In this document: piece after piece, positions 4,533 through 21,656 of the stretch
Numbering within the stretch: position 1 is the first letter of the stretch
Layout of the letters: every line of letters begins with the position of its first letter
NCBI GenBank assembly: GCA_947258975.1
Contig: CAMYKK010000008.1
Coordinates: 1 to 64,000 of the forward strand
Direction of reading: 5' to 3'
Origin: an uncultured Gammaproteobacteria bacterium
GTDB lineage: Bacteria; Pseudomonadota; Gammaproteobacteria; Arenicellales; JAANXG01
DNA: 64,000 bases
Notes under the pieces: generated by a model
The model's input: the letters and a program-made list of their open reading frames with translations, nothing else
Database searches by the model: none
Told to the model about the DNA's origin: nothing
Made by a program: the position numbers and the translations under genes

Positions 4533-4591
4533 GAGTGATAGCGTAGCAAATCATGTTACTTTTCGTAACATGATTTGCTACGCTATCACTC
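4533..4591. repeat. 27-bp perfect inverted repeat with embedded TGTTAC-N5-GTAACA site
   Basis: The arms 4533-4559 and 4565-4591 are exact reverse complements of 27 bases around the 5-base loop TTTTC. The inner part, 4554-4570, is TGTTAC-N5-GTAACA, the same dyad that occurs upstream of the symporter gene at 9167-9183. The right arm ends on the base before the ATG at 4592. It lies between divergent operons, so a terminator role is unlikely. It is best read as an operator, probably for CbrB, but the very long arms exceed what one such site needs. Confidence 0.85.
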
Positions 4592-4792
4592 ATGGTGAGT
4601 CCTTCAGACCCGATACGCCGCATTGAGTGGACGTTGCTGGTCGCAGCGTTGGCGCTGTTGTTATTCGCCACCCCGGTGGTCTATTGGTGGGCGCAAGACG
4701 ACAGCCCGTGGTATCTGGCGTACCTGTTGTGGCTGGTGATCATCGGACTCACCGCCTGGCTGCAGTCAAGGCGGAACCGTCATGACCTTTAG
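4592..4792 (+). CDS. Small two-helix membrane protein upstream of cbrA (CbrX-like position)
   Basis: The 66 residues contain two hydrophobic helices (TLLVAALALLLFATPVVYWW and WYLAYLLWLVIIGLTAWL) and a basic C-terminus. The stop lies inside cbrA, an 11-base overlap, so translation of the two is probably coupled. In Pseudomonas a small gene called cbrX sits in the same overlapping position before cbrA; that parallel is by position and size only. Small DUF3311-type partners of sodium:solute symporters look similar. No Shine-Dalgarno is visible because the start abuts the palindrome, so a leaderless transcript or another start is possible. Confidence 0.7.
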   Translation: MVSPSDPIRRIEWTLLVAALALLLFATPVVYWWAQDDSPWYLAYLLWLVIIGLTAWLQSRRNRHDL

Positions 4793-7751
4793 CCTGACCT
4801 ATTTATTTCTCGCTGTTGTCGGCTATTTGTCGCTGTTGTTCTTGATCGCCTATGCGACTGAACATGGACGCATTCCGAGCAGCGTTGCGCGCCATCCCGC
4901 CACCTACGTCTTATCGCTGGGCGTGTATGCGACCTCTTGGAGCTATTACGGCAGTGTCGGATTCGCCGAGACGCAAGGCTATACGTTTCTGACTGTGTAT
5001 CTTGGCGTGACGATCGCATTTGCGATGACGCCGATACTGTTGCAGCCGATCTTGCGGTTGGTGCGAGACTACCAGTTGACATCGACCGCGGACTTGTTTG
5101 CGTTTCGTTATCGAAGTCAAATGGCCGGAATTATTGTGACGCTGTTTATGATGGCCGGCACCTTACCGTATCTGGCATTACAGATACGTGCGGTGACTGA
5201 ATCGATACACGTATTGACCGCCGAAGCGCCACCGCGGTTTATTGCGCTCGGATTCTGCGTGACGTTGATATTATTTGCCATACTATTCGGAGCCCGGCAC
5301 ATCTCTCCGCGGGAAAAACACGAAGGATTAGTGGTCGCGATTGCTTTTGAGTCGTTGGTAAAAATTGTTGCCCTGTTGATGGTGGGCACGTTTGCGGTGT
5401 TTGGCGTATTTGGCGGCGTTGGCGGTGTCGGCCAATGGTTGGCGGCAAACCCTGAGGCACTGGAGGCGTTGTACCGGCCGGTCAGAGAGGGTCCTTGGAC
5501 GACGCTGATTTTCCTCGCCTTTGCTGCCGCATTCTTGTTGCCGCGTCAATTCCACATGACGTTTACGGAAAACATCGAGGCCCGCAGTCTTGGCGTTGCC
5601 AGCTGGGCGTTTCCGTTATTTCTGTTCCTATTCAACCTCGCGATTCCGCCGATCTTATGGGCAGGAACCGCGCTCGGTTCGGCATTGAATCCCGATTACT
5701 ATGTCTTGGGAATCACCTTGGGCGGCGGCTCCGAACTGTTGACGGTTGTCGCGTTCCTGGGTGGCGTGTCGGCCGCCAGTGCGATGGTGATCGTAACCAC
5801 GGTGGCTTTGTCGGCCATGTGTTTGAATCATATTGTGCTCCCCGCCAGTTATCCAGACCCCACGGTCGACCTGTACCGCTGGTTGTTGTGGGGACGGCGA
5901 GTTGTGATTGCGCTCATTGTGTTGGCCGGTTATGGGTTTTATGTGGCACTCGAAGACAATCAAGGTCTGGTGCAATTGGGATTGATTTCATTCGTGGCCG
6001 TGGCCCAGTTCGTGCCAGGTATCGTAGGGCTGCTTTATTGGCCACGCGCCAACCGCTACGGATTTCTTGCCGGACTCGCAGGTGGTGCAACGGTGTGGTT
6101 CGTGACCCTGGTCGTGCCGTTGATGGAACAGGCCGGTCAGCTCAAGCTGGATTTTAGCCTCTATCCGCTGCTCGCCTACACGCAACAAGACAAATGGACA
6201 TTCGTGACGTTTTGGTCGCTGGCACTGAATGGTTTTCTGTTCGTGGTCGTATCGCTGTTATCGCGGCAAACGCACGATGAGCGGGAAGCAGCGCTCGCCT
6301 GCACCCGACAGGCCTTCGCCTTGCCCCGCGGCGTCGTCACCGCTACCTCTCCGGCGCAATTTGTGGAACGGTTGGCGGAATCGTTGGGAAAGCCCATGGC
6401 CGAACGTGAGGTGCATCAAGCGCTTCAAGACCTTGAACTCGACGACGAAGAGGCCAATCCCTCGGAATTGCGGCGGTTGCGGGACCAGATCGAAAGGAAT
6501 TTATCGGGTCTCATGGGCCCCGAGATGGCACGTGTTCTGGTCGACGAGAAACTACAGCTGGACCCAGGTGCTCAGACGGCGTTTGCCGACAGTGTGCGCA
6601 TGATGGAGCAACGCCTGGAGGCGTCGCGGACCCAGTTACGTGGCATGGCCGCCGAAATGGACACCCTGCGGCGCTATCATCGACAGGTGTTGCAGGAGTT
6701 GCCCATGGGCGTGTGCTCCGTCGGTCCGGATCGTGAAGTGGTGATTTGGAATCACGCGATGGTGCGTATGTCCGGTATCGACGCGCAAAAGGTGGTCGGT
6801 ACCCAAGTGACACGATTGCCCGAGCCGTGGCGCCGTTTGTTCGACGAATTTCTCGACACCGATGCGCGCGAATCAATACAAAGAAAACGCCTAGCGGACC
6901 AAAGCTCGCGTTGGTTGGGACTGCACAAGGCATCGTTGGAAGATGTCGTGAGCGTGACTTCGATGGGCAGCCAATCGGCAGGGACCGTAATATTGGTCGA
7001 GGACCTGACCGAAACCAAATTATTGGAAGCCGAACTGGCGCACAGCGAACGGCTGGCATCCATTGGCCGACTTGCCGCCGGAGTCGCCCATGAAATCGGC
7101 AATCCAATTACCGGCATCGCTTGCCTGGCGCAGAACATCGAGGCCGAATGCGACGACAAGCAAGTTCGGCTGAGCATCAGCCAAATTCTGGATCAAACCA
7201 AACGGATCAGCAATATCCTGCGGTCGCTGGTTAGTTTTAGCCATAGGGGCGCTCACAACGACGGTGATTTGGGAGTTTTCAACCTGTGCGGCTGCGTCGA
7301 GGAAGCCATCGGGTTGGTAAAGCTGGGCGATGCGGAAAAGCGCATGGAATGCACCAACCGTTGTGATCGAAATGCCGAAATCTTCGGTGATCGGCAACGC
7401 TTATTGCAGGTCTTTGTCAACGTGTTGAGCAATGCTTGCGATGCATCTGGACACCGAGGTAAGGTCGAAATCGATACGCAGATCGACCGGGGTACGGTCG
7501 AGGTGATGATTCGCGACGACGGTGTGGGCATAACCGAGGCCGAACTCAATAAGGTGTTCGAGCCGTTCTTCACGACCAAAGAGCCGGGTAAAGGCACCGG
7601 GCTTGGATTGGCCTTAGCCTATAACATCATTCAAGAGCATGGTGGGCAAATCAGCATAGAGAGCGAACCGCAGAATGGGACCACGGTGATGATCCGGTTA
7701 CCGCAACATGGCGCCGAGATGCGCGCTGAGCAGAGCGCCGCAGTATCATGA
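4782..7751 (+). CDS. cbrA: Transporter-histidine kinase fusion, CbrA-like
   Basis: This 989-residue protein joins a sodium:solute symporter (SLC5/SSS) module of about 13 helices (residues 1-490) to a linker of the STAC type (about 500-610), a PAS domain (about 645-745) and a kinase. The H-box ASIGRLAAGVAHEIGNPITG has its histidine at residue 770, the N-box is LLQVFVNVLSNACDA and the G-box is GKGTGLGL near 936. Length and architecture match Pseudomonas CbrA (about 983 residues). The next gene is an NtrC-type regulator, as in CbrAB, and not a LuxR type as in CrbSR/MxtR-ErdR. The kinase probably reports on uptake of an amino acid or organic acid; the ligand cannot be read from sequence. Confidence 0.88.
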   Translation: MTFSLTYLFLAVVGYLSLLFLIAYATEHGRIPSSVARHPATYVLSLGVYATSWSYYGSVGFAETQGYTFLTVYLGVTIAFAMTPILLQPILRLVRDYQLTSTADLFAFRYRSQMAGIIVTLFMMAGTLPYLALQIRAVTESIHVLTAEAPPRFIALGFCVTLILFAILFGARHISPREKHEGLVVAIAFESLVKIVALLMVGTFAVFGVFGGVGGVGQWLAANPEALEALYRPVREGPWTTLIFLAFAAAFLLPRQFHMTFTENIEARSLGVASWAFPLFLFLFNLAIPPILWAGTALGSALNPDYYVLGITLGGGSELLTVVAFLGGVSAASAMVIVTTVALSAMCLNHIVLPASYPDPTVDLYRWLLWGRRVVIALIVLAGYGFYVALEDNQGLVQLGLISFVAVAQFVPGIVGLLYWPRANRYGFLAGLAGGATVWFVTLVVPLMEQAGQLKLDFSLYPLLAYTQQDKWTFVTFWSLALNGFLFVVVSLLSRQTHDEREAALACTRQAFALPRGVVTATSPAQFVERLAESLGKPMAEREVHQALQDLELDDEEANPSELRRLRDQIERNLSGLMGPEMARVLVDEKLQLDPGAQTAFADSVRMMEQRLEASRTQLRGMAAEMDTLRRYHRQVLQELPMGVCSVGPDREVVIWNHAMVRMSGIDAQKVVGTQVTRLPEPWRRLFDEFLDTDARESIQRKRLADQSSRWLGLHKASLEDVVSVTSMGSQSAGTVILVEDLTETKLLEAELAHSERLASIGRLAAGVAHEIGNPITGIACLAQNIEAECDDKQVRLSISQILDQTKRISNILRSLVSFSHRGAHNDGDLGVFNLCGCVEEAIGLVKLGDAEKRMECTNRCDRNAEIFGDRQRLLQVFVNVLSNACDASGHRGKVEIDTQIDRGTVEVMIRDDGVGITEAELNKVFEPFFTTKEPGKGTGLGLALAYNIIQEHGGQISIESEPQNGTTVMIRLPQHGAEMRAEQSAAVS

Positions 7752-9112
7752 GTGAGATACTGATCATCGATGACGAGGCCGTGATTCGCACGGAATTGAC
7801 TCGATTGCTTACACGTCACGGTTATCAGGTCGCCAGCGCGGGTTCGGTGGGAGAGGCCGAGCGGGACAACGATATCGGCGCATTCGATTTAATCATTGCC
7901 GACCTTAGACTGCCGGGTGAGTCTGGTACGAGTGTGATTTCGAAAAGCAACGGCACGCCGGTCTTGATCATGACCAGTTACGCGAGCGTCAAATCGGCCG
8001 TAGAGTCGATGCGCTTGGGGGCCGTGGATTACATTGCCAAACCGTTCGATCACCAAGAAATGATCATGGTCGTCGACCGGATTCTGAAAGAGGGGCGATT
8101 ACAACGGCAGAATGCGGCGCTGAAGTCCGTTGTGCAACGCGAATACCCGGTCAAGGGTATGATCGGGGCCTGCCCCGCCATGAAAGAGGTGTTCAGCCGC
8201 ATCAGCAAGGTGGCGCCCACCAACGCCAACGTACTGATACTGGGCGAATCCGGTACCGGCAAGGAGTTGGTGGCAAGGGCGATGCACGAGCACAGTCAAC
8301 GCAGCGATGCGGCGATCGTCACCGTCAACTGCGCGGCGATTCCTGAGGAGTTGATGGAGTCGGAGCTGTTCGGCCATGAGAAAGGCGCGTTCACCGGCGC
8401 GGTGGGTGCTCGAGAAGGACTCGTGGAGGCCGCCGACGGTGGTACCTTGTTCTTGGATGAGGTCGCGGAATTGTCCCCCGGTGCGCAAGCCGGCCTGTTA
8501 CGCGTTCTCCAGGATGGTGAAATACGCCGTGTGGGTTCCAACAAAGTACGGCGGGCGGATGTCCGGTTGTTGGCCGCGACACATCGCAACCTTGGCGACC
8601 GCGTTAAGCAAAGCCGTTTCCGCGGGGACCTGTATTTCCGCCTCCGGGTCATGGAGATCACACTGCCGCCACTAAGGGATAGAGGGGACGACATCGTCGC
8701 CTTGGCGGAGTCGCTGTTGGAACGCACGTGTAAACAGCTCAATCGCACGGTCATGGGATTTCACCGCCAGGCGGTGGAATTGATTCGGGAGTACCACTGG
8801 CCGGGCAACGTGCGCGAGTTGGAAAACGCGATCGAGCGCGCCGTAATCCTGTCCGAGCGGAACGAGATTGCCCCGGAGTTATTGGCAATCGATACCACGC
8901 GGGTGATCGCATCTAAAGACTCGATATCACATCAGGAGGACTCCCTGGACGATTATTTCTGCAGGTTTGTCCGCGAGCATGAGGACCAATTGACCGAGAC
9001 CGAATTGGCGAGACGTTTGGGGATCAGCCGTAAAACGCTGTGGGAACGCCGGCAACGGCTCGGTGTTCCGCGCCGGCACCGCGCAAGCCGAGCTGAGCAC
9101 GGTCCAGGTTAA
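7748..9112 (+). CDS. cbrB: Sigma-54-dependent response regulator, CbrB-like
   Basis: 454 residues in the NtrC order. The receiver has acidic residues D8-D9, phospho-acceptor D52 (IIADLRLPG) and the lysine of YIAKPFD. The AAA+ domain has Walker A GESGTGKE near 166 and an intact GAFTGA loop near 213, so contact with sigma-54 is expected. A Fis-type helix-turn-helix ends the protein (LARRLGISRKTLWERRQRLG, about 420-445). The ATG overlaps the cbrA stop (ATGA). Likely targets are the TGTTAC-N5-GTAACA sites at 4554 and 9148-9183. The hexamers equal those I recall for Pseudomonas CbrB, although the spacing there differs as far as I remember. Confidence 0.88.
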   Translation: MSEILIIDDEAVIRTELTRLLTRHGYQVASAGSVGEAERDNDIGAFDLIIADLRLPGESGTSVISKSNGTPVLIMTSYASVKSAVESMRLGAVDYIAKPFDHQEMIMVVDRILKEGRLQRQNAALKSVVQREYPVKGMIGACPAMKEVFSRISKVAPTNANVLILGESGTGKELVARAMHEHSQRSDAAIVTVNCAAIPEELMESELFGHEKGAFTGAVGAREGLVEAADGGTLFLDEVAELSPGAQAGLLRVLQDGEIRRVGSNKVRRADVRLLAATHRNLGDRVKQSRFRGDLYFRLRVMEITLPPLRDRGDDIVALAESLLERTCKQLNRTVMGFHRQAVELIREYHWPGNVRELENAIERAVILSERNEIAPELLAIDTTRVIASKDSISHQEDSLDDYFCRFVREHEDQLTETELARRLGISRKTLWERRQRLGVPRRHRASRAEHGPG

Positions 9113-9147
9113 GCCAATGTTGCAGCGCAAAAAACAGCGATGACACC

Positions 9148-9183
9148 TGTTACGAAACAATACATCTGTTACGAAGTGTAACA
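9148..9183 (+). promoter_or_regulatory. Two tandem activator sites (probable CbrB UAS)
   Basis: Site 1 (9148-9164) is TGTTAC-N5-AATACA, an imperfect dyad. Site 2 (9167-9183) is the perfect TGTTAC-N5-GTAACA. Their centres are 19 bases apart, about two helical turns, and site 2 lies about 97 bases upstream of the -24 element, a usual distance for an NtrC-type enhancer. The same dyad is in the palindrome before the cbr genes. Confidence 0.7.
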
Positions 9184-9270
9184 AAAACGCCGAGCCCCCA
9201 CGCGCGCAGCGCTGATCCGATTCCCTTGTAATCGCCTTATCCCCGCCTAGAAGGTGGCTCACGCACTAAG

Positions 9271-9287
9271 AGGCATAATTCTTGCAT
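9271..9287 (+). promoter_or_regulatory. Sigma-54 (-24/-12) promoter of the symporter gene
   Basis: The element AGGCATAATTCTTGCAT has GG at 9272-9273 and GC at 9284-9285 with exactly ten bases between, and a good TTGCA -12 box. Transcription would begin near 9297, giving a leader of about 115 bases. Confidence 0.8.
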
Positions 9288-9296
9288 TACAAGACG

Positions 9297-9411
9297 CCAG
9301 TGGTTCCCAAGGAGTTGGTGCGCGGTCACCGGAGTGGGTGACGACAGGACGCTTAACCAAACCACGACACTCTAAAAACCATTCAACCTAGACAAAGGGG
9401 GAGCAACAATT
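9297..9411 (+). other. Transcribed leader between sigma-54 promoter and symporter start
   Basis: The inferred 5' leader contains a small hairpin (GTCACC at 9325-9330 pairing with GGTGAC at 9337-9342) followed by an A-rich, unpaired stretch and the ribosome site GGGGGAG before ATG 9412. In Pseudomonas the sRNA gene crcZ occupies this position after cbrB. I do not see the repeated AAnAAnAA-type motifs expected for CrcZ, so no ncRNA is called. Confidence 0.4.
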
Positions 9412-11370
9412 ATGGATGCCAAAATCGTCTGGTTGTTCGTCTTCGTCCTGCTGTATTGGGCATATTGCATCTTTTGGGGTATCAAAGGTGCATTGTCCGC
9501 GAAGACAGCGAGCGATTACTTCATCGCAGGCCGGCGCCTGTCGTTGTGGGTATTCGTGCTCGCGGCAACCGCAACATCCTTTTCGGGCTGGACGTTCATG
9601 GGCCATCCGGGCCTGTTGTATCGCGACGGGTTCCAGTATGCCTATGCGTCGTTCTATGCCATTACTATTCCGTTTACCGGGGTGATGTTCCTGAAGCGTC
9701 AGTGGATGCTGGGAAAACGTTTCGGTTTCGTCACACCGGGTGAGATGCTGTCACACTATTTTAAGTCGGACATCATCCGCTTGCTGGTAGTGTTGGTGGC
9801 ATTGTGTTTTTCCGTACCGTATCTCGGATTGCAGTTACGCGCTTCCGGTTTCTTGTTCAACGTATTGACCGATGGTCTGTTGGGCGTCGAGGTCGGGATG
9901 TGGCTGTTGTCCGCGGTGGTGTTTATCTACGTGGCTTCAGGCGGTCTGCGCGCGGTGGCGTATGTGGACACGGTGCAATGTATTCTTTTGGCTGGCGGTA
10001 TCATCGCCCTCGGTATCATCGCCATCAGCTTTGTTCCGGGTGGTTGGGAAGGCCTGAATAAGGGCATCGCACAGCTGGCGCTGGATGATCCCAAGAAGAC
10101 AGCGGACGGCTACAGCCACTACATTGCCATTCCTGGTGTGATTCAGTTCGTCGCGGGCTTGGGTGTCGAGAACCCGGTCGGTGGCGCGTGGACTGGCATC
10201 ATGGTCCTCACCTACATGTTCGCGCTGATGGGCATTCACTCCTCACCGGCGTTCACCATGTGGGCGTTCGCCAACGCCGACCCCCGTCCGTTCGCGCCAC
10301 AACAGGTGTGGGCTTCTTCTTTCGGCATCGGCATCATTTTGTTCATCTTCACCGCCATGCAGGGGTTGGGCGGGCACTTGCTGGGCGCCGACCTCGCTTT
10401 TGCGACGGCCCATCCGGAACTGGTCAATAACGTCATGGGTGAAGCGCTTGGCGGCAAGGACCTGATGGAGTCGGCGGGCAAGCAGGGCATGCTGGTACCG
10501 CAGCTCATCCACCTGATGGGAAATACCGCGCCCTGGCTGGTGGGACTGTTGTCGGTGTGCGCGCTAGCCGCGATGCAGTCTACCGGTGCGGCCTATATGT
10601 CCACCGCCGGCGGCATGCTCACGCGCGACCTGCTCAAGCACTTCATCTTGCCGCAAGCCAGTCATGGCCAGCAGAAGTTCTTCGGCCGTGTTGGTGTGTT
10701 GGTCATCGTGCTGGCGGCTTTGGTGGTTGCCACCACCGCAACCGACGCACTGGTGTTGCTGGGCGGTCTGGCAGTGGCCTACGGCTTCCAGATGTGGCCT
10801 TCGTTGATGTCGGTGTGCTACTTCCCGTGGTTTACCCGGGCCGGCATCACCGTCGGTCTGGCGGCGGGCCTCATCGTGGTAACCATCACCGAGAAGATCG
10901 GTGCGCAGTTCTTTCCATGGGGCCGTTGGCCGTGGACGATCCACTCCGCAGGGTGGGGCATCTTCTTCAACCTGGGTCTGGCGATCATCATTTCGTCGTT
11001 TACTCAGAACCAGGCGGATACCGACCACAAGATGAAATTCCACAACTTTCTGCGTGAGCATGCGAGCCTGCCGGAGTCCAAACGCGGGCTGGTGCCGGTC
11101 GCGTGGATCATCGTATTAGTGTGGTTCTTCTTCGGCATCGGTCCCGGCGCGGTCATCGGTAATACCATTTTCGGTAATCCGAATGACTACGCCACTTGGA
11201 CCTTCGGCATGCCGTCGATCTGGGCCTGGCAACTGCTGTGGTGGGCACTGGGTGTGTTCATGATGTGGTTCCTTGCCTATAAGATGGAGATGTCCACAGT
11301 CCCCGATAAAGAAATCGAGGTGCTGTACGAAGACATCGGCGATTACCACGAAGCAACTGACGATCTCTAA
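9412..11370 (+). CDS. Sodium:solute symporter family permease
   Basis: This 652-residue SSS-family membrane protein starts at ATG 9412 after the ribosome site GGGGGAG. The N-terminal part shows the family pattern with SDYFIAGRRLSLWVFVLAATATSFSGWTFMGHPGLLYRDGFQYAYASFYAI, and the core has AMQSTGAAYMSTAGGMLTRDLLKHFI. Extra helices extend the C-terminus beyond the usual 500-550 residues. It is likely a Na+-driven importer of an organic or amino acid. Control by CbrB and sigma-54 is inferred from the upstream sites, and a strong terminator follows. The substrate is unknown; the nearby acetyl-CoA synthetase makes a short-chain acid possible but proves nothing. Confidence 0.88.
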   Translation: MDAKIVWLFVFVLLYWAYCIFWGIKGALSAKTASDYFIAGRRLSLWVFVLAATATSFSGWTFMGHPGLLYRDGFQYAYASFYAITIPFTGVMFLKRQWMLGKRFGFVTPGEMLSHYFKSDIIRLLVVLVALCFSVPYLGLQLRASGFLFNVLTDGLLGVEVGMWLLSAVVFIYVASGGLRAVAYVDTVQCILLAGGIIALGIIAISFVPGGWEGLNKGIAQLALDDPKKTADGYSHYIAIPGVIQFVAGLGVENPVGGAWTGIMVLTYMFALMGIHSSPAFTMWAFANADPRPFAPQQVWASSFGIGIILFIFTAMQGLGGHLLGADLAFATAHPELVNNVMGEALGGKDLMESAGKQGMLVPQLIHLMGNTAPWLVGLLSVCALAAMQSTGAAYMSTAGGMLTRDLLKHFILPQASHGQQKFFGRVGVLVIVLAALVVATTATDALVLLGGLAVAYGFQMWPSLMSVCYFPWFTRAGITVGLAAGLIVVTITEKIGAQFFPWGRWPWTIHSAGWGIFFNLGLAIIISSFTQNQADTDHKMKFHNFLREHASLPESKRGLVPVAWIIVLVWFFFGIGPGAVIGNTIFGNPNDYATWTFGMPSIWAWQLLWWALGVFMMWFLAYKMEMSTVPDKEIEVLYEDIGDYHEATDDL

Positions 11371-11394: not shown

Positions 11395-11421
11395 GGGGGA
11401 GGGGAAACCCTCCCCCTTTTT
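11395..11421 (+). terminator. Rho-independent terminator after the symporter gene
   Basis: A 9-bp perfect GC-rich stem (GGGGGAGGG with CCCTCCCCC) and GAAA tetraloop are followed by five T residues. It lies 25 bases after the symporter stop. Confidence 0.95.
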
Positions 11422-11484: not shown

Positions 11485-11718
11485 ATGTTGATGTTCTGGT
11501 TTTGGGTGTTTCTGTTGGCTGCCCTGTTGTTTTATCCCGTTACTCAACTGGTTTGGGTAGTCAGCGTGCGCCGCATGCAGAAAAAATTGCAAAAAGAGCT
11601 GAACGAGCAGGAACTGGCGGCGGAAAAGCAACGTGCCCGCTTCATTTCCGCAATCATGAGTTTTTTCTTTTCCGTGTTGTACAACGTCGCACGCCTGGGA
11701 TTTCCCACCGGTGGATGA
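11485..11718 (+). CDS. Hypothetical small membrane protein
   Basis: The 77 residues have an N-terminal hydrophobic helix (FWFWVFLLAALLFYPVTQLVWVVSV), a charged helical middle rich in K, E and Q (RRMQKKLQKELNEQELAAEKQRARF) and a second hydrophobic patch. No family is recognised. The gene overlaps the following TPR gene by 8 bases, so the two products are probably made together and may work together at the membrane. Confidence 0.65.
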   Translation: MLMFWFWVFLLAALLFYPVTQLVWVVSVRRMQKKLQKELNEQELAAEKQRARFISAIMSFFFSVLYNVARLGFPTGG

Positions 11719-12289
11719 AACGCTATACCGATTTCTAAAGTACGTCGCCATCGGGATCGCGGTGGTCGTCATAGGTGTGATGATCTGGGATTCTTTCTTG
11801 GTCGAAAAAACCCCGGGAAATGCCGCGTATCAGCAAGGCAACACGCTGTTCGAAGATGGTGACTATGAGAACGCGCTGCGCCAATATGAAAAAGCCTTGG
11901 AGAAGCAACCGGAGACCCCCCGATACGTCCGCGCCAAGGCCAGGACCTTGATGCAGCTGGGCCGCCACGACGAGGCGCTGGCGTGGTTTGATCGCGCGGT
12001 CTTGATGCAACCGTACTTTGGGGGCGCTTACGCAAATCGCGGCATACTTTATGACCGCTTGGGCCGCTATGATCTGGCGATAGCGGATTACGAGAAGGCT
12101 TTGCAGCTCGATGAAAAAGTCGCCGAAGGACCGCATTGGTTGACCCGGTTCTTGCGCAATCAACCGGCAGAACCGCCGACCATCAAAAAACGCGCCGAGT
12201 ACCTCAAGCAGGAATTGGAAAAACCCGCAGATCAGCGGCTGTTGCGGGTGCCGGAATTGGACGCCAAACAAAGAAGCTACAAGCAGTGA
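11711..12289 (+). CDS. Membrane-anchored TPR protein
   Basis: A GTG start at 11711 overlaps the previous gene. The 192-residue product has one N-terminal membrane helix (YVAIGIAVVVIGVMIWDSFLV) followed by about three tetratricopeptide repeats (residues 35-140; AAYQQGNTLFEDGDYENALRQYEKALEKQP is a clear unit) and a charged C-terminal helix. TPR proteins act as protein-binding scaffolds; no specific role can be read. Confidence 0.8.
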   Translation: MDETLYRFLKYVAIGIAVVVIGVMIWDSFLVEKTPGNAAYQQGNTLFEDGDYENALRQYEKALEKQPETPRYVRAKARTLMQLGRHDEALAWFDRAVLMQPYFGGAYANRGILYDRLGRYDLAIADYEKALQLDEKVAEGPHWLTRFLRNQPAEPPTIKKRAEYLKQELEKPADQRLLRVPELDAKQRSYKQ

Positions 12290-13645: not shown

Positions 13646-15583
<1,938 letters not shown>

Positions 15584-17158: not shown

Positions 17159-17191
17159 GAATATTCCAGGGCCAGAGGCTTGGTGGAGAAC

Positions 17192-18895
17192 ATGAGTCGC
17201 GCCAAAATCGCCAGCCATCGCGGGCATCCGGGGGCACGGCGAGGTAAATCCGGGATTGTCCCCAAGGGCCGGCAGGTCGATGCGAACGCGATGACGGCGA
17301 TTCAGCAGCTGCTGGGCGGGCGATCCAGGCAGCGGGACCTGCTCATCGAACATCTGCACCGCATCCAGGATCGCTTCGGTCACCTTTCCGCGCCGCATCT
17401 GGCGGCATTGGCCGAGGAGATGCGGTTAGCGCAGACCGAGGTGTATGAGGTGGCGACTTTCTACGCGCATTTTGATGTGATCAAGGAAGGCGCGGCACCG
17501 CCCCCGCCGCTGACCGTTCGCGTGTGTGACAGTATCGCCTGTGAACTCGCGGGATCGCATGCCCTGCTGAGCGCATTGACAGAACATTGCGGCGCCCAGG
17601 TGCGTGTCGTGGGGGCGCCCTGTATGGGACGCTGCGACACGGCGCCGATCGCCGAGACGGGTCATTATTTTGTCGATCACGCCAGCGTGGCGTCGGTGCT
17701 CGCGGCAGTCCAGGAGCGCCGCACCGATCCCCAAGTGCCGGAATATATCAGCTTTGATCAGTACGTCGGGGACGGGGGTTACACACTGTTGCATGCGTGC
17801 CTGTCCGGTGAACAAGAACCCGACGAGGTGATGGCCGCACTGGAACAGGCGCAATTTCGTGGTTTGGGAGGGGCAGGTTTCCCCACCGGCCGCAAGTGGC
17901 GTATCGTGCGTGGAAAACCGGCGCCGCGTCTGTTGGCGGTGAATGCCGATGAAGGAGAACCGGGCACGTTCAAAGACCGCTACTATTTGGAACATGACCC
18001 GCATCGTTTCATTGAGGGAATGTTGATTGCCATGTGGGCCGTGGACGCCGAGCGATGTTATCTCTATCTGCGCGATGAATATCCGGCAATACGCGAGATT
18101 CTGTTGCAGGAATTGACGCGGGTGGAAAGCGAAGGGCTTGCCAGAAGTGGATCTATAGACTTACGCCGCGGCGCCGGGGCCTATATCTGCGGTGAGGAAT
18201 CCGCGATGATTGAATCGATCGAGGGTAAACGCGGTCTGCCGCGGAATCGACCTCCTTATGTGGCCGAGATCGGACTGTTCAATCGACCGACGCTGGTGAA
18301 CAATGTAGAGACCCTCTACTGGGTGCGCGACATCGTGGAGAAAGGGCCCGCGTGGTTCTCCGCTGCGGGGCGGAACGGACGCAACGGGTGGCGCAGCTTT
18401 TCCGTTTCGGGCCGGGTAAGAGAACCGGGTGTAAAGCTTGCGCCGGCTGGCATTACCGTCCGGGAACTGATCGAAGAATATTGCGGCGGCATGCAGGCTG
18501 GCCACGTTTTCAAGGCTTATTTACCCGGCGGTGCATCAGGCGGCATCCTGCCGGCGTTGCTGGGTGATGTGCCTCTGGACTTCGGGACATTGGAACAATA
18601 CGGGTGTCTGATCGGTTCCGCGGCGATTGTGGTGTTTGGTGACCAGGACAATATGCGCGACGTGGCATTGAATTTGATGCGGTTTTTTCAGCGAGAAAGC
18701 TGTGGACAATGCACGCCCTGCCGGGTAGGGACGGAGAAAGCCGCGCAGTTGATGACGGACCCGCGGTGGGATCGCGCGCTGTTGTCGGACCTGAGTGAGA
18801 CGATGGCGGACGCATCGATCTGCGGGCTGGGGCAAGCCGCGGGTAACCCGATCCAATGTGTGCTCAAATATTTCCCCGAGGATATCGATGGGTAA
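17192..18895 (+). CDS. Formate dehydrogenase diaphorase, FdsG-FdsB fusion (NuoE-NuoF type)
   Basis: One chain of about 567 residues joins a NuoE/FdsG module (about 30-165) to a NuoF/FdsB module (about 185-560). The first has the four cysteines of a [2Fe-2S] thioredoxin-like domain (CDSIAC and PCMGRCD). The second has the NADH/FMN loops GAGGFPTGRKWRI and NADEGEPGTFKDRYYLEHDPHRFIEG, and the [4Fe-4S] motif CGQCTPCRVGTEK. It would pass electrons from formate to NAD+. In FdsGBA systems these are normally two genes. The stop overlaps the fdsA start. ATG 17192 is chosen; GTG 17183 or TTG 17180 are alternatives. Confidence 0.9.
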   Translation: MSRAKIASHRGHPGARRGKSGIVPKGRQVDANAMTAIQQLLGGRSRQRDLLIEHLHRIQDRFGHLSAPHLAALAEEMRLAQTEVYEVATFYAHFDVIKEGAAPPPPLTVRVCDSIACELAGSHALLSALTEHCGAQVRVVGAPCMGRCDTAPIAETGHYFVDHASVASVLAAVQERRTDPQVPEYISFDQYVGDGGYTLLHACLSGEQEPDEVMAALEQAQFRGLGGAGFPTGRKWRIVRGKPAPRLLAVNADEGEPGTFKDRYYLEHDPHRFIEGMLIAMWAVDAERCYLYLRDEYPAIREILLQELTRVESEGLARSGSIDLRRGAGAYICGEESAMIESIEGKRGLPRNRPPYVAEIGLFNRPTLVNNVETLYWVRDIVEKGPAWFSAAGRNGRNGWRSFSVSGRVREPGVKLAPAGITVRELIEEYCGGMQAGHVFKAYLPGGASGGILPALLGDVPLDFGTLEQYGCLIGSAAIVVFGDQDNMRDVALNLMRFFQRESCGQCTPCRVGTEKAAQLMTDPRWDRALLSDLSETMADASICGLGQAAGNPIQCVLKYFPEDIDG

Positions 18896-21656
18896 GCCGC
18901 TGCAGTTCAAGCTCGACGGTCGCGCGATCGATGCCGTGCCCGGCGAGACGATTTGGCAGGCAGCCAAACGCTGCGGTGTTGATATACCCCATCTTTGCTT
19001 TTCTCCGGCCCCCGGTTACCGCGCGGACGGCAACTGTCGGGTATGTATGGTGGAGATCGAAGGTGAGCGGGTGTTGGCGGCTTCATGTTTGCGTAAACCG
19101 ACAGCGGGAATGGAGGTACACACTACCAGCGCGCGCGCCGTCGGTGCACAGAGTATGGTGATGGAGTTGTTGCTGGCGGATCAACCGCCACGTGAAGCCG
19201 CGCACGATAAAGAGTCCCGGCTCTGGCATTGGGCCGAGCGGCTGCGTGTTGACGGAAGCCGGTTTCCGCTTCGCGATGCGCCGGCTGCGGATGCCAGCCA
19301 CCCGGCAATGCACGTTGCTTTGGATGCTTGTATACACTGCAATCTGTGTGTGCGCGCGTGTCGCGAGGTGCAGGTCAATGACGTGATCGGCATGGCGTAC
19401 CGGGGTCATGACGTAAAAATCGTATTTGACTTCGACGATCCCATGGGTGAGAGCACCTGTGTGGCGTGCGGCGAGTGCGTGCAGGCCTGTCCAACGGGGG
19501 CGTTGATGGCGGCCTCTCTGGTTGATGCAAACGGCATTGGCAAGAATGATTTGTTAACGGCGGTGGATAGCATCTGCCCCTACTGCGGGGTCGGCTGCCA
19601 GATCACATATCAGGTCAAAGACAATCAAGTAGCCGCGGTCCAGGGCCGGGCGGGCCCGGCAAACGAGAATCGTCTGTGTGTCAAGGGCCGGTTTGGTTTT
19701 GATTACGTTCAGCACCCGCATCGCCTCACAAAACCGCTGATCCGCCATGATGATGCACTCAAGCACGGTGATCTTGACCTCGACCCGGCGCATCCTTTGA
19801 CCCACTTTCGCGAGGCGAGTTGGGAGGAGGCGTTGCACGCAGCGGCGGAAGGGTTCACGGCGATTCGCGACCGCGACGGTCATCGAGCATTGGCGGGATT
19901 TGGTTCTGCAAAGTGCTCAAATGAAGAGGCGTATCTTTTCCAAAAACTCGTGCGCACCGGATTCGGCACTAATAATGTGGATCACTGTACCCGTCTGTGT
20001 CACGCGTCATCGGTGGCGGCGTTGCTCGAGGGAATCGGTTCCGGCGCGGTCACCGCGCCATTTACCGCCGTCAAGGACGCCGACGTGATAATTGTGATTG
20101 GCGCCAACCCAACAGAAAATCATCCGGTTGCGGCGACCTATTTCAAACAAGCAGCCAAGCGGGGCACTTTGATTGTCATGGATCCAAGAGGGCAGGCGCT
20201 GAGACGGCATGCCAAGCACATGTTGCAGTTCAAGCCCGGCACTGACGTTGCGTTGCTGAACGCGATGCTCAATGTAATCGTTGCAGAGCAACTTTATGAT
20301 CGGGTATACGTCGATGCGCACACGGAGGGTTTCGAAAACCTAAAGCGCCACGTCAAAGACTATACACCTGAATCAATGTCTCACGTATGTGGCATTGAGG
20401 CCGAGACCATCCGTACCGTGGCGCGGACATATGCCCAGGCGGGCGCGGCGATCATATTTTGGGGTATGGGGATCTCGCAGCATATTCATGGCACCGACAA
20501 TGCTCGTTGCTTGATCGCGCTGGCACTGATCACTGGGCATGTGGGTCGGCCCGGAACCGGGCTCCATCCACTCCGTGGTCAAAACAATGTACAAGGCGCC
20601 TCTGACGCTGGTCTGATACCGATGATGTATCCCGACTATCAATCCGTCGAGGTGGCGGATGTCCGCGGTCGCTTCGAAGATTTCTGGGGCAGCGCGCTCG
20701 ATGCGCAACAGGGCTTGACCGTCGTGGAGATCATGACGGCGATCCACGCGGGACAGATCAAGGGAATGTACATCATGGGTGAAAATCCAGCGATGTCAGA
20801 TCCGGATGCAGAACACGCGCGCGAGGCGCTCGCCAAGCTCGATCACCTCGTGGTGCAGGATCTTTTTCTAACCGAAACCGCATTTTTTGCCGACGTGATA
20901 TTGCCGGCGTCTGCGTGGCCGGAAAAAGAAGGCACCGTCACGAACACCAATCGTCAGGTTCAACTAGGAAGGCGCGCGCTGAACACGCCCGGGGACGCGC
21001 GTCAGGACTGGTGGATTATCCAGGAGATGGCAAGACGCATCGGCTGTGATTGGCATTACAGTCATCCACGCGATGTTTTTGCCGAAATGACGAAGGTCAT
21101 GCCGTCCTTCAACAATATCACCTGGGAGCGCTTAGAGGCGGAGAGCGCCGTCACCTATCCATGCAGCGCTCCCGATACACCAGGCGAAGCGATTGTGTTC
21201 GGTGATCGATTTCCTACCGCCAGCGGCCGCGGTAAACTAGTCCCCGCAGCGTTAACCTCACCGGACGAGCTACCGGATGAGGAGTACCCGATGATCTTGA
21301 CGACCGGGCGGCAACTCGAACATTGGCATACTGGTGCGATGACCCGCCGTGCCAGCATCCTGGATGAGATCGAACCGGAGGCGGTTGCCAGTCTGTCACC
21401 CGTCGATTTGCGCCGTCTCGATATCCAACCGGGAGCGCTGGTGAACGTCACTACTAGGCGCGGTATGATCGAACTCAAGGCCAGAGCGGACACAGCCATT
21501 CCGACCGGCATGATATTTATCCCGTTTTGCTATGCCGAAGCGGCGGCCAATGTGCTGACCAATCCTGCGCTCGATCCTTACGGTAAGATTCCTGAGTTCA
21601 AATTTTGCGCGGCCCGTGTAGACACGGCGACGACGGTGTTAACGGCTGAGCGGTAA
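18888..21656 (+). CDS. fdsA: NAD-dependent formate dehydrogenase catalytic subunit (FdsA-like)
   Basis: The ATG at 18888 overlaps the diaphorase stop, giving about 922 residues. In order: an N-terminal [2Fe-2S] domain (CGVDIPHLCF, CRVCMVEIEG), a His-Cys motif, two [4Fe-4S] clusters (CIHCNLCVRACRE and CVACGECVQACPTGAL), a further cluster (CPYCGVGCQ) and the molybdopterin domains. The catalytic pair is Cys371-His372 in HCTRLCHASS, so this is a cysteine enzyme, not a selenocysteine one. It oxidises formate to CO2 in the cytoplasm. No fdsC/fdhD or fdsD genes follow, so maturation factors must lie outside the window. Confidence 0.93.
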   Translation: MGKPLQFKLDGRAIDAVPGETIWQAAKRCGVDIPHLCFSPAPGYRADGNCRVCMVEIEGERVLAASCLRKPTAGMEVHTTSARAVGAQSMVMELLLADQPPREAAHDKESRLWHWAERLRVDGSRFPLRDAPAADASHPAMHVALDACIHCNLCVRACREVQVNDVIGMAYRGHDVKIVFDFDDPMGESTCVACGECVQACPTGALMAASLVDANGIGKNDLLTAVDSICPYCGVGCQITYQVKDNQVAAVQGRAGPANENRLCVKGRFGFDYVQHPHRLTKPLIRHDDALKHGDLDLDPAHPLTHFREASWEEALHAAAEGFTAIRDRDGHRALAGFGSAKCSNEEAYLFQKLVRTGFGTNNVDHCTRLCHASSVAALLEGIGSGAVTAPFTAVKDADVIIVIGANPTENHPVAATYFKQAAKRGTLIVMDPRGQALRRHAKHMLQFKPGTDVALLNAMLNVIVAEQLYDRVYVDAHTEGFENLKRHVKDYTPESMSHVCGIEAETIRTVARTYAQAGAAIIFWGMGISQHIHGTDNARCLIALALITGHVGRPGTGLHPLRGQNNVQGASDAGLIPMMYPDYQSVEVADVRGRFEDFWGSALDAQQGLTVVEIMTAIHAGQIKGMYIMGENPAMSDPDAEHAREALAKLDHLVVQDLFLTETAFFADVILPASAWPEKEGTVTNTNRQVQLGRRALNTPGDARQDWWIIQEMARRIGCDWHYSHPRDVFAEMTKVMPSFNNITWERLEAESAVTYPCSAPDTPGEAIVFGDRFPTASGRGKLVPAALTSPDELPDEEYPMILTTGRQLEHWHTGAMTRRASILDEIEPEAVASLSPVDLRRLDIQPGALVNVTTRRGMIELKARADTAIPTGMIFIPFCYAEAAANVLTNPALDPYGKIPEFKFCAARVDTATTVLTAER

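Follow-up and report, generated by a model that had tools for sequence, protein, structure and literature searches.

In our study, the analysed stretch of DNA (the window) comprised 64,000 nucleotides, the first 64,000 positions of contig CAMYKK010000008.1 (assembly GCA_947258975.1) of an uncultured Gammaproteobacteria bacterium, whose closest named relatives were MAGs labelled uncultured Gammaproteobacteria or Arenicellales. The forward strand was found to contain a cbrX-like small membrane ORF of 66 amino acids (4592–4792) overlapping cbrA (4782–7751), which encodes an SLC5-STAC-PAS-histidine kinase without a REC domain, followed by cbrB (7748–9112), which encodes a sigma-54 activator response regulator. 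After an intergenic stretch of 299 nucleotides, the gene of an SSS/SLC5-family symporter of 652 amino acids was present (9412–11370, start codon ATG at 9412), which is the predicted output gene. A terminator scan placed an intrinsic terminator 3' of the symporter (11395–11421, forward strand), followed on the same strand by a TPR-protein gene (11711–12289) and acs, encoding acetyl-CoA synthetase (13646–15583), which starts 2.3 kb past the symporter. In most genomes the small TPR gene trailed the window symporter, whether or not cbrAB was present, and its function is unassigned. Formate dehydrogenase-like genes were found downstream of acs (17180–21656). The genome also contained rpoN.

The CbrA of the window was 49% identical to Pseudomonas CbrA over the full length (residues 2–975) and contained the same SLC5-STAC-PAS-kinase arrangement; the PAS, HisKA and HATPase domains were identified by Pfam, and the SLC5/STAC part by alignment only. 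CbrB contained a REC domain, a sigma-54 AAA+ domain with GAFTGA and a Fis-type HTH, whose sequence TETELARRLGISRKTLWERRQRLG was nearly equal to the Pseudomonas TETELARKLGISRKCLWERRQRLG. The order cbrX-cbrA-cbrB and the cbrX/cbrA overlap were as in Pseudomonas, and TGTTAC/GTAACA half-sites were present, to which CbrB is inferred to bind, without binding data. From the identity of CbrA, the overlap and the HTH, the locus was concluded to be the orthologue of the Pseudomonas cbrX-cbrA-cbrB locus.

About 110 relatives were compared overall. Scanning of named genomes returned 80 CbrB orthologues, and in a class sample 35 of the 369 genomes contained one, from which the regions were fetched; CbrA preceded CbrB in nearly all the CbrB-bearing loci examined. 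Previous studies described CbrAB as unique to Pseudomonadaceae (PMC6296734, PMC8871633). However, orthologues were found in Acidiferrobacteraceae, Ectothiorhodospiraceae, Solimonas, Sedimenticola and others, as well as in myxobacteria, and therefore CbrAB is not exclusive to that family. The cbrAB-like pairs of four Myxococcota loci (L056, L061, L063, L066) were nested among the gammaproteobacterial ones, and some of these loci carried a palindrome, a sigma-54 promoter and acs; horizontal transfer is probable. A MAG labelled Nitrospira (L052) contained a gammaproteobacterial-type cbrAB, likely on a mis-binned contig or else by transfer. A scan of viral contigs with CbrB returned unrelated activators only.

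The original prediction placed two CbrB-type sites, a near-consensus −24/−12 promoter and a leader of 115 nucleotides directly after cbrB, and read them as the control found at the crcZ position in Pseudomonas, here driving a permease. The half-site, palindrome, promoter and leader were all confirmed. The palindrome TGTTACGAAGTGTAACA (9167–9183) is an exact TGTTAC-N5-GTAACA. The site before it, predicted as TGTTAC-N5-AATACA, held only as a half-site: its left TGTTAC (9148–9153, forward strand) is real, and TGTTACG is kept in relatives, whereas the right half is degenerate, with three of six bases matching, and the full 17-mer scored 3.4 bits against 22.2 bits for the site at 9167. The promoter GAGGCATAATTCTTGCA (9270–9286, forward strand) contained GG-N10-GC, but three specified positions were off consensus; by itself the element is ordinary and only a fair match. 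A loose −24/−12 pattern matched the window 28 times against 23 expected, which is no enrichment, and the promoter is thus credible only by its conservation in relatives. The pattern, the upstream activator site and the rpoN gene together meet the description of a sigma-54-dependent promoter, its dependence on RpoN and an activator being inferred. The predicted leader (9297–9411, forward strand) opens with a CAGTGGTTCC block conserved within the genus and carries a strong, conserved ribosome-binding sequence AAAGGGGGAG at 9394–9403. The terminator scan gave no stem-loop for the intergenic stretch before the symporter, and read-through from cbrB was not excluded.

By pattern search (exact and single-mismatch, not matrix), the exact palindrome was found in only two copies in the 5.5-Mb genome, at 4554 and 9167, and the reversed-pattern control in none. 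The four single-mismatch palindromes elsewhere were at chance level, without sigma-54 promoters nearby, and a CbrB/sigma-54 module was sought but not found upstream of the window acs. The copy at 4554, missed by the original prediction, is a CbrB-type operator TGTTACTTTTCGTAACA in the cbrX promoter (4554–4570), followed just 3' by an extended −10-like TGCTACGCT (4576–4584, forward strand). Outside the crcZ group, a palindrome with at most two mismatches was present 207–311 nucleotides upstream of cbrA, at the cbrX promoter, in 42 of 53 loci, where 1.65 were expected from shuffled upstream regions at a looser cut-off of three mismatches; among Pseudomonadales-type loci, it was found in one of 55, that of Bermanella. 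An extended −10-like TGnTAnn(n)T lay within 20 nucleotides of the operator in 19 of 43 loci (0.5 expected), and no sigma-54 promoter was seen at the cbrX operator in the loci with the palindrome. CbrB bound there would most simply block the cbrX promoter, an inference without binding data towards which the balance tips slightly. The operator forms the core of a 27-bp perfect inverted repeat with a 5-nt loop (4533–4591), which ends at the cbrX start codon. Its arms were kept in the closest relatives L196 and L201, and partly in L202, whereas the left arm was lost in L203. The arms in close relatives carried matching changes, and the repeat may fold into a hairpin ahead of cbrX or supply a promoter that reads divergently towards the mnh/mrp operon.

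Comparison of the regions downstream of cbrB has shown conservation of operator and promoter. The promoter, together with the half-site, the palindrome or both, formed conserved islands within an otherwise diverged intergenic region of 12 relatives; in L007 the same elements were placed further downstream, and in L012 and L013 they preceded a DUF4212-SSS gene pair, that is, a non-orthologous symporter with a small subunit. A matrix was trained on upstream operators only, with the window's own family excluded, and searched against the 300 nucleotides after cbrB. A site (p<=0.005) was found in 26 of 59 non-crcZ loci (Fisher 5e-26); about half of the non-crcZ loci contained no palindrome directly after cbrB. 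A GG-N10-GC promoter followed 60–98 nucleotides past the site in 23 of the 26 loci with a site (0.68 expected), and in one of the 33 without (1.15 expected), giving an association of p=4e-12. Because the loci are related, these counts are not independent and the p-values overstate the case; nonetheless the loci span many families. For the same reason helical phasing between site and promoter was suggestive yet is not claimed (11-bp period, p about 5e-4; 10.5-bp, p 0.014; 10-bp, not significant).

The genes behind the module promoter were SSS symporters, DUF4212-SSS, DUF294 operons including DUF4212-SSS, or acs. Six genomes contained the module before such operons away from cbrB: a symporter on the other strand in L065, a symporter in L161, DUF4212-SSS in L071, DUF294 operons in L160 and L171, and a DUF294-SSS operon about 27 kb away in L274 (G064). 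In 18 CbrB-bearing relatives, exact palindromes occurred almost solely at the cbr locus or at target operons, and six scanned genomes without a CbrB orthologue contained no exact palindrome. The combination of palindrome and promoter was found in none of the Pseudomonadales-type loci. In L103 (Solimonas flava), a palindrome with a sigma-54-like promoter was located about 5650 nucleotides past cbrB, its target gene being unidentified.

In the window, no CrcZ sRNA gene was found after cbrB. Rfam gave no CrcZ in the window even at E<=10, the leader at 9297–9411 included, and none above the cut-off in the window and 20 relatives. The 14 control genomes contained no CrcZ, and the positive controls were instead P. 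otitidis (L109, 328 bits) and Halopseudomonas (L078, 130 bits). The claim that the leader lacks CrcZ-like A-rich repeats also held. No AANAANAA was found downstream of the promoter, and the only one within 600 nucleotides was AACAAAAA, at the edge of the 9167 site and upstream of the predicted start. Such repeats numbered 8–11 in most Pseudomonas loci and 3–16 in nearly all other Pseudomonadales-type loci (exceptions L102, none, and L068, one), against 0–1 outside the Pseudomonadales-type loci. RNAalifold found no conserved structure in the leader.

In the CbrB tree, a single clade with support of 100/98 comprised the crcZ-type sequences and L176 and was nested among the remaining Cbr sequences, whereas the deep branches and the root were weakly supported. 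CrcZ and the A-rich repeats were confined to this one derived Pseudomonadales clade. By sequence and pocket (F248), L176 (G037) belongs to the crcZ clade, yet neither pcnB nor A-rich repeats followed its cbrB; a secondary loss of crcZ is possible. The histidine contacts of Pseudomonas CbrA are known from its structure (PMC13022988), and alignment served to carry the pocket positions over, the numbering being offset by two. Within the crcZ clade, position 53 was S (55/55), 248 was F (55/55) and 257 was H (53/55), whereas the other Cbr sequences contained T (52/55), A or S (54/55) and R (54/55), respectively. At the histidine-pocket residues S53, A56, F248 and H257, the window contained T, S, A and R; K196 was invariant. 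Seven CrbS-like SLC5-STAC outgroup kinases agreed with the window-type pocket, and the histidine pocket therefore looks derived, appearing together with the crcZ clade.

The original prediction left open whether the permease is an ancestral or an alternative output of CbrAB. The ancestral option is favoured over a one-off arrangement, because all crcZ-type sequences fall into one derived clade nested among the others, and because Bermanella, inside that clade, retains the cbrX operator. It is likely that a local symporter output is ancestral and that the RNA circuit of Pseudomonas evolved from it.

The locus shares with CbrAB-CrcZ of Pseudomonas and Azotobacter the gene order and overlap, the architecture of CbrA and CbrB, the TGTTAC/GTAACA half-sites and a sigma-54 promoter directly after cbrB. 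It differs in its output, which is a symporter instead of CrcZ, in the operator within the cbrX promoter, and in the CrbS-like, not histidine-type, pocket of CbrA. Its sites also differ: the Pseudomonas sites consist of non-palindromic F1/R1/R2 sub-sites (PMC6296734, PMC8871633) in the order TGTTAC-N12-14-GTAACA-N15-19-GTAACA, whereas the window contained 17-bp palindromes, a refinement of the original prediction. In the RpuS/R-MctP system of Sinorhizobium fredii (PMC9100948), an SLC5/STAC kinase system likewise controls a nearby SSS monocarboxylate symporter; RpuR is of LuxR type and acts without sigma-54, the regulator genes lie downstream of mctP, and the regulators are not CbrB orthologues, so that the system offers a functioning parallel built on another kind of regulator. 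The acetate switch CrbS/R (MxtR/ErdR; PMC5715377), which controls acs and actP, has an SLC5-STAC kinase with the pocket residues of the window CrbS-like CbrA, but its kinase is a hybrid with REC, CrbR is of LuxR type, the DNA motif is different and sigma-54 is not involved. The window system was considered as CrbS/R and rejected, as it has neither a hybrid REC kinase nor a LuxR-type regulator. The VC_2705-family symporter with its DUF4212 small subunit (TIGR03648/TIGR03647) occupied the same regulatory position in several relatives; the window symporter belongs to another SSS subfamily, with the TPR gene and without DUF4212.

The window symporter matched no substrate-specific family, with weak similarity to PutP, and a PDB search returned distant SSS proteins only, indicating no substrate. 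In the class sample, symporter and CbrB occurred together in seven of 369 genomes against 1.7 expected (p=6e-4), and 11 of the 18 symporter-bearing genomes were without CbrB. Acetate or another short monocarboxylate is proposed as the substrate because of the neighbours (acs, DUF294, VC_2705/ActP-like symporters) and the CrbS-like CbrA pocket. This assignment is inferred, transport being untested; it could as readily prove wrong as right, and it is the weakest step of the whole reading.

In the circuit that we propose, CbrA would phosphorylate CbrB, which would bind the palindrome at 9167–9183 with the help of the 9148 half-site and, by way of sigma-54 RNA polymerase, would activate the promoter at 9270–9286 for the symporter mRNA; CbrB would also bind the palindrome over the cbrX promoter, probably limiting its own operon. 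The circuit would be local, a sensor with a transporter-like domain switching on a separate uptake permease. Later, in Pseudomonadales, crcZ would have become the output, the CbrA pocket would have changed to the histidine type and the cbrX operator would have been lost. As a whole, the explanation of the window as an ancestral-type CbrXAB locus with a local symporter output is likely. The sequences themselves show the elements, how these are conserved and occur together, where the locus falls in the tree and which residues line the pocket, and the reading of a crcZ-position control driving a permease withstood every comparative test that was run. CbrB as the binder of the palindromes is inferred; activation of the symporter by CbrB, without expression data, is an inference in which we place high confidence, whereas autorepression of the cbrX operon is one that we favour only by a small margin.

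It is possible that CbrAB is a global regulator here as in Pseudomonas, the symporter being one of many targets with weaker or non-palindromic sites. In Pseudomonas, 61 or more genes carry CbrB sites made up of degenerate half-sites with variable spacing (PMC6296734), and such sites would escape a palindrome search. Against this, the exact sites of the genome were confined to the cbr locus, the single-mismatch sites were at chance, the extra sites in relatives mostly preceded symporter operons, and no CrcZ was found. Another possibility leaves the proposed wiring intact but gives the symporter histidine or a different amino acid as its substrate, by analogy with the transporter domain of CbrA itself in Pseudomonas, which takes up histidine (PMC7918813); SSS proteins include PutP, to which the window symporter is weakly similar. 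The neighbouring acs, DUF294 and VC_2705/ActP-like symporters, and pocket residues unlike the histidine type, speak against it.

It is unlikely that the palindromes are read by another sigma-54 activator or a different regulator, the linkage to cbrAB being incidental. The genome encodes dozens of related activators (43 matches), but mutational mapping has assigned this half-site to CbrB (PMC6296734), none of the six scanned genomes that lack a CbrB orthologue contained the palindrome, and the cbrX promoters of the crcZ clade have lost it. The CbrB HTH is also conserved. Least likely, and very doubtful, is a short CrcZ-analogue RNA from 9297–9411 with the symporter expressed by read-through. 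The promoter lies in the crcZ position and the CAGTGGTTCC block at the leader start is conserved in the genus; the leader, however, has no AANAANAA, Rfam match or conserved fold, no terminator separates promoter and gene, and the ribosome-binding sequence is strong and conserved.

In Pseudomonas, the textbook system of carbon-catabolite control is CbrAB with CrcZ and Hfq/Crc; reviews describe CbrAB as restricted to Pseudomonadaceae and its evolutionary origin as unclear. According to our comparisons, CbrAB occurs in many gammaproteobacterial families and in some myxobacteria; they also indicate its likely ancestral target, provide a palindromic operator together with a putative autoregulatory site, and point to individual CbrA residues that changed along with the output. 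On this basis, how the circuit arose and what signal CbrA receives can be tested directly. In a bolder reading, to which we incline without much assurance, CbrAB began as a local, autoregulated, CrbS-like sensor of short monocarboxylates driving a symporter or acs via sigma-54; once, towards Pseudomonadales, the pocket would have been retooled for histidine, the operator lost and the output swapped for the decoy RNA CrcZ, turning an uptake switch into a global carbon-repression regulator.

CrcZ itself seems to reach beyond Pseudomonadaceae. CrcZ-like RNAs of 34–39 bits, below the Rfam cut-off and with 12 A-rich motifs, were found in Pseudohongiella (L095, 7599–7897; L081, 7547–7824), and A-rich regions were present at the same position in Oceanospirillaceae and other marine Pseudomonadales. 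In five Pseudomonadales loci (L078, L081, L095, L105 and L110), acs was located about 4.6 kb past cbrB, behind pcnB and panBC, and is perhaps a remnant of an older neighbourhood.
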